Positions 1,088-46,479 of a stretch of DNA of 64,000 bases are shown here, piece after piece. This stretch comes from Cymodocea nodosa (Eukaryota > Streptophyta > Magnoliopsida > Alismatales > Cymodoceaceae), in contig JAZBRI010000011.1 of the NCBI GenBank assembly GCA_036874045.1, positions 12,964,501 through 13,028,500 of the forward strand, written 5' to 3'. The notes under the pieces were generated by a model that did no database searches, was not told where the DNA came from, and was given only the letters and a program-made list of their open reading frames with translations. The position numbers were made by a program, and so were the translations under genes. The first letter of the stretch is position 1, and each line of letters starts with the position of its first letter.

Positions 1088-4000
1088 GAAAAATTGTATT
1101 TGCTGCTCCTTCACGTCCCCTTGTTGCACAACAGATTAAAGCATGCCATGATATAGTTGGGATACCTCAGGTTTTGTTTATTTTTTATCATGATTGGTTT
1201 AACTTTTGGGAAATATTTTTTGTGTACTGTTCTCATCACAATTTTTTGCAGGAATGGACAATTGATATGACAGGTCAGATTTGTCCTCAAAAGAGGGCAG
1301 AGTTTTGGAAGGTTAAAAGAGTTTTCTATGTTACTCCACAAGTTCTTGAGAAGGATGTACAGAGTGGTGATTTGGCATCTTTTATAGCTTGCTATCAATT
1401 TCCATTCACCACAATATGAATTGCTCTTTCTTTGAAACTGTTGTGCTTTAGGATGGTTTTTATTGAGTTTTTTTTTTTGCAGGTATTTGTTCAATAAAGG
1501 AACTTGTATGTTTGGTTATTGATGAAGCTCATCGTGCAACTAAAAATTATTCATATTGTGTTGCAGTTCGTGAGGTGTGAATTGCGATTGGTTTAGATGT
1601 GTTTGTTTTCTGTTGAATATTCTTTCTTTTATCTATACTTTTAAAAATTGACTTGTTTGTTGATCCCCTTCATCATACAAGTCTTGCTTCGAGTGTACAA
1701 GTAATGTTTAGGTTATTTCATTTTAACTACATTCCTAGTCTTTTTGTAATTTTCAATATGAAATGTATTGTGACTCTGTTTGTGATGGATTTTTTGAACA
1801 TTCTTTAATTTCTTGCCTCTTGATGCCGCCAAATTTGCAGTTGATGTCTACACAAGTACCGCTAAGAATTTTAGCTTTGACTGCCACACCGGGCTGTAAG
1901 TAGCGTGGCTTTTTCCATTAACTAAATATATTTTTGGAGATCCTTATTTTTTTTTCACTCAGCAAACAAACAGACGGTACAAAATGTTATCAATAATTTA
2001 TGCATTTCAACAATTGAATACCGTGATGAAAGTCATGAGGATGTGAAGCCATATGTAAATTACAGAAAAATTGAAGTAATCAAGGTATGTGTTCTTGATT
2101 GTTTTTAGATTTTTTTATATTATAGTTAACTTTTACCATTTTTTTTCAATCTTCTTTTTGCACAAATTTCAGTTTGAGATGGACAAAAGTGCTGATGAGA
2201 TTGATGGGCTACTCTTAGAAGTTATGAAGCCATTTGTTAACATTCTTAAGTTAAAAGGGTTGCTGCGAAATAGAGATTTCACCACTGTATGCATAGAAAC
2301 ATTTTCAAAATTTGGCACAAGTTGCTTTAAGATATTTTCTTTGTTTTAGTGGTACTGCATGCTCCTTTTGTTATTCTGAATTGATGGGCTACTATTAAAA
2401 GTTATGGAACTTTCCATAAGCATTCTTATGTTGAACATACTGTTCCAAAAGAGGATTTTACAACTGTTTGTCAGACATCCTGCATGCTTTCCTTGTTTTG
2501 TTACTCTGAACGTCTTTCAAAATTTAGCAGAAGTTGCTTGAGAATATTTTATTTGTTTTAGTCAATATCACATTGTCCACTTCTGCTGTAAGGGAGCTTT
2601 TCTGTTAAGGTTGGAACCATTTCTGCCCTTTTTTAAAAAAAATTTCTGTTTTATATTTTTCATTTTTTCTCATTGCATTTTTCATTCATATTCAGTTCTG
2701 TTGGTATTTTTTATTTTTCCATTATTACTTTTTTGTTTTTTATTTTTAACAAATATAGAGGCATGAGTATAGAAGCATTTGTGCTACAGTAACACAAGGA
2801 ATCTAACTTCAGTCCAACAGAAAAGGATGTTAGAGTTATTTAGTTTTCTTCCTTTATAATATATTTAAGTGATAAATGGATATCCATGTATGCTTAGATA
2901 TATATATCCTTGTAATCATTTTGTTTAGTGAGAATGCTATAGTAATCACCTTTCTCAAGATGGTATTAGGGCACTAATCTCAGTCTTAGGGTTTGTTTGG
3001 CCATCTCTTACACCTCACGCAAGTTGTTTGATCACAATCCTTGGTCAGACTCGTTCATCTGATACTTGACATCGTGGCCCTTTGTCGTCATTGCATTCTT
3101 TGATGACCTTTGTCACTCTTTCCCCTTTACTTGATCGCATGACACACTCAGATTGAGGGAGCTGTCTTTTCACCTCTTGTTGCATCCTCCATCGACATCA
3201 GAGTAGTTGTCGATGTTGATTGTTACCTTTGACTGTATGTAATGTGGTTCGTCCTACTCTAGGTAAGTAGTTGAGAGCTGTGATAGTTTGATCCAACTTT
3301 AGTTAGTCATCATCACTTGCTCGAACAGTCCAGTTTGACCCCTGTTTTGTTGATGATTTCTGACTTCAGTTGATAGCCATTTGTTTGTCGACAGGAACTT
3401 GCTTGAATAGTCCAAACTGACTGATTCTTATATCAGGAATCCTTTGCTTGTCGATCATCTTTTTTTTTTAAAAAAAATTAGGAGTCATGGCTGTTGTTTG
3501 GTCATTATAGCTTGTCAAAGGACTTCCAACTCTAGTTCAACTAGAGGTGACCTCTTCATTAAAAACTTTCCTAGCATTACTGAGAAGTTAAATAGTCCAT
3601 ACTCTGTTCTTTGAACTTAGAGCTTTGAGAATATAATAATTGCTCATCGTAGAGAACATCTTTACTTTCTTCTTTCGGATGTAAAAGATTTAACCTATAG
3701 AGATTGATACACTAATGATTTTGCCATTATTTCTTTGATGCTATCTTGTATGGAACGTGTGGTTGCTTGTAGGGTATTTATGTTTTGCTTTGCCAAGGAG
3801 ATTTAAGACACTCTTCGACAAATGTATGGTCATAAAAAGAATATCTCAAAAAATTTTCAAGTTTACGAATAATTGTTTCAACTTAGACAAGGAGACAAGA
3901 CATTTCAGGAGCATTATTGCATATTTAGAGGTTTAATAAATGAGTTAAATCTTTGTTTACCTCCAACTGTTGATATTTCTACCTTTCATCGATATAGGGA

Positions 4001-44900: not shown

Positions 44901-46479
44901 GATGATATAACTTTTACCTGCTGCATGAGTGACAGAAGACTGTTGGGTTGCTGTTGCTAGATAGTGTGCATGCACTATCTGGTCCACGTCAATATCCTAT
45001 TGTCGGTAAAAAAAAAAGGTTCAGATTGCTTACTCCCATCTTGGTAACCATAAACCAAGATTAACATTACCTTCAAGATGTCATCATCGTCGTCTAGAGT
45101 ATCAGTTATATTTTCAGGGTTTCTTTTGTTGCCATTGTAGGTTTCAGTCACATGGCTATCCCCAATAATTAAACTTGGATTAAGTGGCGGAGATGATCCT
45201 TTATTATTAAGGCAACTTGCTTTTGAAGTTGTAGTAGTTCCTCCTTGGCAAATGGCACTTCCTTGGAAAGAATTGGGCACGTGGCCTACAGAGTGGACAG
45301 TCTTGGTGTAGGATACTTGACTTCCGTGCAGTGTCTCATTTGTTGAGCTTTCATAGTGCTTTTGATTATGACAGAAAGAGCTTCTGGAGTCAGTGGCCTT
45401 TCTTGTAACTTTTGAGTAATCAAAACCCTCAGGAGAAATATGTTTTGTGCTACAGTCTACAGCTGGTGCAGATATTCCTGGCTTCAAATAATCCTTGCAC
45501 CCCCCATTAATATTGCAAAGAGTGTTCCATGCCTACCAAAAAGTTGCAAACAAATATTCATGCGAAATGGATTGACTAGTAAAGAATATTTAAGTTTTAC
45601 CTCAATCTCAAACTTAAACCAAAGACAAGATGGCATACCCTCTCAACTTGAGAAACTTGAAATCTTCCACTATTTTGAGCATTATAGGAAACAGGCCTAA
45701 AAATGAAAGACATATAGAATGTGTCAAATACAAATGAACATGTAGACCAAATTGAGAAGAATCTTTTATAATGCAATTTGAAACATCTTTAAAATTATGT
45801 TGTCGGCAAATCATGTTACCCTTTTGCATTAACGAAGGACCAGCATATCTATTATATTAAAAGAAGCTCTCCTCTCATGGACTTACATTTTATTGATGTC
45901 CCAAACTACTCTTTGACGAATAAAAATAAGATTTTTCCAATAAAAAATCACAACAGGCCACAGTGGAACATAAGCCCACAACCTCACACTTTAAAAGCAA
46001 ATACCTTATTGCATACAATTCGCTCGTGCATTACACTAGTAATTCTTAAAGCTTTCTTTCTTACCCTGCCTCTAGTTCTCTCTATAATACAAATCATTAT
46101 TGCATGAATTCAACATTAAGTCCCGCAGCAATGATACCGTGCAATGCCAAAATAAGAATTGCACAGCTCTATTATAAAGTCATAAAAAAGGCATATACTC
46201 ACCTAGGACACACCGAGCCTTCGCCTCTCGGCTTCTGCTTGGGCAATGAGTAGAGGAAATTCGAACTCAGAATGCCATCCTGGCAGCCGACATTCTCAAA
46301 AACACTTGCATGATCCAGCCAATTGATCTTGATACCTCGATCTTTAGAATTCCCCCGTACACAGCTCCCACTGCCCCACCACCAAATCACAGAACATAAG
46401 CATACCACTCGAAGCAAAAGGAAAAACGCAAACAAGTTCCAAAACTAACTTCTCACCCCAATGCCACTCCCTTAGACAT
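35944..46479 (-). CDS. RECQ4: RECQ4 (BLM/SGS1-type RecQ helicase), 25 exons
   Basis: 3'-5' DNA helicase of the RECQ4-TOP3alpha-RMI1 complex, which dissolves recombination intermediates and suppresses crossovers. Exons: 46457-46479, 46203-46370, 45639-45696, 45071-45532, 44841-44996, 44607-44737, 44150-44513, 43942-44073, 42181-42267, 41960-42087, 39540-39660, 39310-39461, 39092-39227, 38670-38793, 38529-38599, 38361-38429, 38145-38270, 37912-38070, 37581-37661, 37321-37482, 37090-37145, 36823-36925, 36646-36749, 36481-36558, 35944-36376. All phases agree: 1227 codons plus stop (Arabidopsis RECQ4A is about 1190). Walker A TGGGKS at 43954-43971; DEAH at 39582-39593; motif [11 protein letters not shown] in exon 16; RQC cysteines in exon 18; HRDC about exons 22-25; a lysine/arginine-rich tail. 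Exon 1 is inferred. The RecQ4 assignment over other plant RecQs rests on near-identity to RECQ4A blocks. Confidence 0.93.
40548..40870. repeat. 161-bp tandem duplication in RECQ4 intron 10
   Basis: GTACC(C/T)GAAATAAAAAAAGAC begins at 40548 and 40709. Both copies continue through TGTCTTATTTATTGCATTC to TCTCTCTCCATTTCCAT. Confidence 0.85.
41321..41892. mobile_element. Small element with inverted ends in RECQ4 intron 10
   Basis: The left end AAGGTTGTTAAGGCAAGTG followed by CCTAGGCA, and the right end read in reverse (AAGGTGTTGGCCTGGGGCAC then CTAGGCA), match imperfectly as terminal inverted repeats. The interior is non-coding. A non-autonomous DNA transposon is likely; superfamily not determined. 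Confidence 0.5.
42268..43941 (-). other. RECQ4 intron 8
   Basis: A 1.7-kb intron between the Walker A exon and the exon starting LPAVICPG. Besides the cysteine-rich repeat frame it holds sequence at 43100-43680 open in pieces on both strands, which I cannot assign. Confidence 0.55.
42458..42838 (+). other. Cysteine-rich open frame with a 38-residue tandem repeat inside RECQ4 intron
   Basis: A 126-codon open frame on the strand opposite RECQ4, within its 1.7-kb intron 8. A 114-bp unit starting at 42503 repeats at 42617, in frame, giving two 38-residue units with GGHQCNSAN and [10 protein letters not shown]. The third segment continues with further C and H residues. Both copies keep the frame although they differ at several bases. 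I do not recognise the protein. Unprocessed intron repeat or nested gene are both possible. Confidence 0.35.
46457..46479 (-). other. Proposed 23-nt first coding exon of RECQ4
   Basis: Exon 2 (conserved INWLDHAS text) has no good start of its own except an in-frame ATG at 46435 that would add a hydrophobic leader unlike the family. Instead ATG at 46479 gives MSKGVALG, then a GTGAGA donor at 46456, and the acceptor GGGCAG ends at 46371. This joins in frame. The start is inference. Confidence 0.55.

Follow-up and report, generated by a model that had tools for sequence, protein, structure and literature searches.

Convergent FANCM and RECQ4 genes in Cymodocea nodosa and a second, ancient RECQ4 copy

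Introduction

Are two helicase genes that limit meiotic crossovers immediate neighbours in the genome of Cymodocea nodosa, and if so, does their closeness mean anything beyond physical linkage? The question is raised by a stretch of 64,000 nucleotides, here called the window (positions 12964501-13028500 of contig JAZBRI010000011.1, hereafter C11), in which a sequence-only reading had placed a FANCM gene and a RECQ4 gene side by side. According to passages of published work, the form in which all papers are cited here, FANCM and the BLM-TOP3-RMI factors constitute separate anti-crossover groups with additive effects (PMC12392947), and the FANCM and RECQ4 pathways are also described as parallel elsewhere (PMC7004904). 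For the double mutant of Arabidopsis, PMC12392947 cites a ninefold rise in crossovers; that of rice (recq4 fancm) is reported there to be almost sterile. The claim of the sequence-only reading that the two pathways are separate and additive therefore stands as far as their parallel nature is concerned, but additivity is a statement on Arabidopsis, and the near-sterility reported in rice implies that losing both linked genes would not have the uniform effect of more crossovers in every species.

Results

FANCM and RECQ4 end 1634 bases apart

FANCM on the + strand and RECQ4 on the - strand proved to be convergent neighbours. The FANCM stop codon occupies positions 34307-34309 (+) and that of RECQ4 positions 35944-35946 (-), and these exact stops confirmed the adjacency, the orientation and the gap of 1634 bases (34310-35943) that had been read earlier. 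Positions are counted from the first letter of the window; negative positions lie upstream of it and were taken from fetched flanks. The features of the locus are as follows.

-12708..-12652, -12572..-12203, -7360..-7217, + strand: FANCM exons 1-3, upstream of the window
1088..34309, + strand: FANCM orthologue, exons 4-20 of a 20-exon model in the window
1088-1170, 1252-1366, 1483-1574, 1841-1895, 1963-2084, 2173-2286, 8074-8243, 11132-11259, 13677-13737, + strand: FANCM exons 4-12
17336-17406, 20696-20745, 27012-27171, 27334-27443, 27526-27844, 31617-32750, 33131-33312, 33803-34309, + strand: FANCM exons 13-20
34310..35943, no strand: intergenic stretch of 1634 bases with no gene-like open reading frame
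35944..46479, - strand: RECQ4 (BLM-type RecQ helicase), complete 24-exon model of 1204 amino acids

Genes between the pair were looked for, and none is visible. The gap is overlapped by 11 open reading frames of at least 30 amino acids, the longest of which (58 amino acids) lies mostly inside the end of FANCM and the next of which has 56; a scan of the window revealed no Rfam family at its gathering score, and 34000-36400 is free of repeats measuring 25 bases or longer. AATAAA words occur on both strands within the gap, also deep in it, and are uninformative at this base composition. About nine anti-crossover genes are known. Assuming this number and about 30,000 genes, the probability that some pair of them are neighbours is approximately 0.2%, a figure to be read as a post hoc estimate and not as a test. 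A paper search found no report of a FANCM-RECQ4 adjacency in passages of the literature on FANCM or RECQ4. The arrangement is real and may be new, that is, two known genes in a possibly new neighbourhood, and we regard its interest as modest.

The FANCM gene begins upstream of the window

A sequence of Arabidopsis FANCM served as the template for finding the gene and aligned with a collinear run of + strand exons between 1087 and 34300. Its N-terminal part matched two exons in the upstream flank, one at -12572 and one with GLGKT at -7367. The spliced model extends from -12708 to 34309 and comprises 20 exons encoding 1347 amino acids with a single terminal stop; the gene spans approximately 47 kb, of which about 12.7 kb and three exons lie outside the window. 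At position 1088, which had been taken for the start of FANCM, the model places the beginning of exon 4. Exons 1-3 lie upstream, so that the N-terminus of the protein and motif I are encoded outside the window; the Walker A motif is present as GLGKT in exon 3. Most junctions score well, whereas three are weak: 27171/27334 (score 1.2), 27844/31617 (score -1.0), which may conceal a missing or wrong exon, and 33312/33803, a plain join of the anchors for want of a passing GT-AG pair.

The FANCM product carries the Pfam domains DEAD and Helicase_C. When its helicase part, a joined query of 674 amino acids with some exons left out, was compared with solved structures, human FANCM was the best relative (9el5, 1.1e-116), ahead of an archaeal helicase (1wp9, 5e-73), RIG-I (1.9e-27) and weaker matches. 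By this comparison, the helicase core (SF2 DEAH) is closer to FANCM/Hef than to Dicer or RIG-I. A search of the genome (374.6 Mb in 28 contigs) with the helicase part, in which all 46 candidates were scored, returned 21 matches, 12 in the C11 gene and nine in other helicases (26-45% identity), and FANCM appears to be a single-copy gene. Compared with Arabidopsis FANCM (AT1G35530), the protein is collinear over most of its length and shares the helicase motifs and the acidic C-terminal blocks; the C-terminal third is weakly alike (pieces of 20-48% identity), and the gene here differs in its length of some 47 kb, in the retroelement-like remnants in its introns and in adjoining RECQ4. Meiotic anti-crossover activity is the most likely function of this FANCM.

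Several repeats were observed within the gene. Part of exon 9 (2200-2255) recurs in the next intron at 2380-2435 (77% over 56 nucleotides, spacing 180), and a second repeat pair lies nearby at 2303-2350 and 2515-2562 (88%, spacing 212). The introns also hold remnant frames resembling a copia-type gag-pol at approximately 3400-7000 and 10260-11780 on the + strand and from -6620 to -2611 on the - strand; a copia-like stretch elsewhere on the contig (C11:16.003-16.007 Mb) matches the remnants at -6620..-4017 and 6710-6976.

RECQ4 is complete and has an old second copy

The RECQ4 model, read from 46479 to 35944, is free of internal stops, and its product displays, in order, the Pfam domains DEAD, Helicase_C, RecQ_Zn_bind, RQC and HRDC, a BLM-type order which we take to be that of Arabidopsis RECQ4 as well. 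The model is weakest at its short and uncertain first exon (46479-46457) and at its last junction (36480/36375), at which the anchors were likewise joined directly, no GT-AG pair having passed. Among solved structures, human BLM was the best relative (4cdg, 2.6e-132), closely followed by RECQ1 (1.4e-127). Since the best-scoring stretch began at residue 410 or later in the best 60 of 120 matches, the N-terminal third of the protein is without a solved relative among these. The N-terminal blocks are apparently of the RECQ4 type. We call the gene RECQ4 on the basis of its domains and the BLM match, of these blocks and of its neighbours, including a ferredoxin gene. The identities assigned to both genes by the sequence-only reading were thus borne out by their domains and by human FANCM and BLM as the best solved relatives.

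A genome-wide search with RECQ4, in which 38 of 67 candidates were scored, so that the counts are lower bounds, gave at least 48 matches: 22 on C11, 11 on contig C8 (1015118-1023059) and 15 elsewhere. The RECQ4-like matches at C24:3487851 and on C5, C6 and C12 are probably other RecQ genes. On C8, a second RECQ4 (C8:1015118-1026401, loci L037, L040 and L039) can be aligned with the window copy from the N- to the C-terminus. Over 1092 codons, 51.9% of residues are identical, with a dS of 1.66, a dN of 0.38 and a dN/dS of approximately 0.23. By this measure the pair is old, with dS near saturation, and the low dN/dS suggests constraint. We read the split at dS 1.66 as a far older duplication than that of the Arabidopsis copies RECQ4A and RECQ4B (AT1G10930/AT1G60930); a ferredoxin gene lies in the neighbourhood in both species.

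The C8 copy has no FANCM beside it: the joined FANCM query, which recovers the C11 gene as a control, gave no match at E values up to 1 in the 30 kb searched (C8:995001-1015000 and 1023001-1033000). The earlier proposal that one haplotype block carries both genes therefore holds for the RECQ4 of C11 but not for the second, alignable RECQ4 on C8. Linkage of the C11 pair is certain, as it trivially is for any neighbours, and its importance is a matter of conjecture.

Neighbouring genes point to duplicated and rearranged segments

Gene order on both contigs was established with Pfam and by reading of open frames. On C11 it runs TMEM18, a STOP1/STOP2-type zinc finger, KDO transferase, a DUF688-like gene, FANCM (+), RECQ4 (-), a C2H2 zinc finger (-), EXO70, TM9/EMP70, ferredoxin and an ABC transporter, the last being a piece below the Pfam cut-off. 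On C8 it runs a DUF688-like gene (no Pfam match), DUF3475 (PSI1-like), a deoxynucleoside kinase (dNK), RECQ4 and SCO1. The next recognised gene on the RECQ4 side lies within the window.

53385..60458, - strand: C2H2 zinc-finger gene, presumably YY1-type, with Pfam zf-C2H2 on all three pieces
60150-60458, 54358-54615, 53385-54263, - strand: exon pieces of the C2H2 gene

The STOP1/STOP2-type gene, whose zinc fingers Pfam names STOP2-like, is approximately 22 kb from FANCM, and three genes separate RECQ4 from the ferredoxin gene, which lies about 36 kb away.

C8 and C11 share duplicated segments, as judged from the alignment of C11:16.0125-16.033 Mb with C8:0.993-1.005 Mb along the PSI1-like and DUF688-like genes; the best relative of the C8 PSI1-like piece is at C11:16013833 (70%). 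On C8, no more than about 20 kb separate RECQ4 from the PSI1-like and dNK genes, whereas the distance between RECQ4 and the PSI1-like gene on C11 is 3.0 Mb, which implies that a rearrangement parted RECQ4 from PSI1-dNK in one of the two segments. A break on C11 would make the FANCM-RECQ4 adjacency a derived one; with a break on C8, the adjacency may be older. A weak hint comes from contig C5, where PSI1-like (470036, 56%) and EXO70 (492276, 40%) matches are 22 kb apart: PSI1 may have belonged to the RECQ4-EXO70 side, which would favour a rearrangement on C11. However, EXO70 is a gene family and has a better match on C6. Three neighbours are silent on the relation to C8, because EXO70 beside the window has no close relative there (one weak match, C8:432576), the TM9 gene has its close second copy on C9 (79%) and the STOP-type gene yielded no second full copy in the genome search.

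One candidate for paired segments around FANCM was dropped. The DUF688-like gene on the FANCM side of C11 matches that on C8 (30.6% over 147 amino acids), but the genome search placed its best relative at C11:16.03 Mb instead (48%). Its DUF688 label is itself below the Pfam cut-off (19.2 vs 20.3 bits), the C8 piece matched no family, and a genome search for PF05097 gave only two matches, both on C14.

Other observations concern the surroundings. The C11 PSI1-like gene meets the copia-like stretch mentioned above. A 42-amino-acid match at C12:15156393-15156518, 86% identical to the C11 STOP-type gene, is perhaps a relic copy, and C5:470036-493253 may be another relic, here of the neighbourhood on the RECQ4 side. 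Locus L044 (C8:1038173-1039060), which lies upstream of the C8 RECQ4, is a gene with an Est1 DNA/RNA binding domain, SMG7-like by reading. Within the window, 50001-52000 is the 2-kb bin with the highest G+C (0.475, compared with 0.284-0.411 in the other bins) and contains a stop-to-stop frame of 195 amino acids (51260-51847).

The pair is not adjacent in Arabidopsis or, apparently, in wheat

In the table of PMC8483783, Arabidopsis FANCM is AT1G35530 and the RECQ4 genes are AT1G10930 and AT1G60930. By these locus numbers the genes are not neighbours there, in agreement with the sequence-only reading. The ferredoxin genes Fd1 (AT1G10960) and Fd2 (AT1G60950; PMC5893904) lie close to the two Arabidopsis RECQ4 loci, as a ferredoxin gene does on C11. 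On the assumption that the latter is an Fd1/Fd2 orthologue, this supports the view that the RECQ4 side of the window is an old neighbourhood. Arabidopsis TM9 and TMEM18 are, we presume, AT1G10950 and AT1G34350. STOP1 is AT1G34370 and STOP2 is AT5G22890 (PMC3848728), and PSI1 is AT1G34320 (PMC7020509). Wheat FANCM is located on 4A, 4B and 4D (PMC9233680), while TaRecQ4-B is, by implication, apparently on 2B (PMC10859459). Tomato has a single RECQ4 orthologue, Solyc01g103960 (PMC7004904); a tomato FANCM locus was not found in passages of the literature on FANCM or RECQ4. The comparison across distant plants covered Arabidopsis and wheat; adjacency is absent from the former and, by chromosome, apparently from the latter.

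Discussion

Very probably, the locus represents two ordinary, apparently intact genes that have the usual roles of their relatives and were brought together by chromosome history without any coupling. An old duplicated segment, now on C11 and C8, would have undergone differential gene loss, and at least one rearrangement would have placed FANCM and one of the two RECQ4 genes tail to tail. In keeping with their relatives, FANCM would act by unwinding recombination intermediates, and RECQ4, together with TOP3 and RMI1, by dissolving them, so that both keep class II crossovers low. Their closeness would add physical linkage but probably no regulatory or functional coupling. The sequence, the domains, the exon models, the copy numbers and the neighbours were observed, whereas function, history and the lack of coupling are inferred from them. 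Two points weigh against this account. With Arabidopsis and wheat as the only species compared, some lineages may have a conserved FANCM-RECQ4 pair. Moreover, FANCM is linked to STOP1 on C11, STOP1 to PSI1 in Arabidopsis and PSI1 to RECQ4 on C8, a chain that hints at one ancestral neighbourhood in which the closeness may be old, provided that the STOP-type gene is STOP1. A neighbourhood inherited from an ancestor of many flowering plants, kept here without function but no longer present in Arabidopsis and wheat, is accordingly a serious if tentative alternative, with the chances somewhat against it; it differs from the rearrangement account only in age, and the odds of the two overlap. It draws on the PSI1-like gene adjoining the C8 RECQ4, on the proximity of PSI1 (AT1G34320) and STOP1 (AT1G34370) in Arabidopsis, and on the STOP1/STOP2-type gene some 22 kb from FANCM, which lacks a second full copy and has TMEM18 beyond it. 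It has to accommodate the separation of the pair in Arabidopsis and, per passages, in wheat, the 30 kb free of FANCM beside the C8 RECQ4, the STOP2-like call by Pfam, the tentative STOP1 and PSI1 identities, and the joint PSI1 and EXO70 matches on C5, which favour RECQ4-PSI1 as the older link; the points on gene identity and on C5 lower its chances slightly.

Explanations that give the closeness a function, or deny that it exists, fare worse. Overlapping 3′ ends forming a cis natural antisense pair, and thereby coupling expression of both genes, are improbable: the convergent orientation, the gap of 1634 bases and AATAAA words deep in it on both strands are all that speaks for them, and, as plant 3′ untranslated regions usually measure a few hundred bases, overlap across the gap would need long ones. 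Even less credible is a linked crossover-modifier block, in which convergent transcription and tight linkage would let haplotypes set class II crossovers through both pathways while the C8 RECQ4 was freed for somatic repair. Equally remote is an assembly artefact joining two loci: the window contains no N, the contig is 17.0 Mb long, ordinary genes occupy both flanks and the stretch around the gap is free of repeats of at least 25 bases.

We favour the account of chromosome history without coupling. The old RECQ4 pair, apparently under constraint, may be the more interesting by-product, and its second copy is the most useful addition of this analysis. A RECQ4 knock-out in Cymodocea nodosa would probably need both copies to be hit, and a double mutant of FANCM and the C11 RECQ4 would be hard to make by crossing because the genes are neighbours. 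Should conservation or co-regulation of the FANCM-RECQ4 pair be found, variation in crossover rate could be explained by a single mapped locus, and edits at that one locus could touch two pathways.

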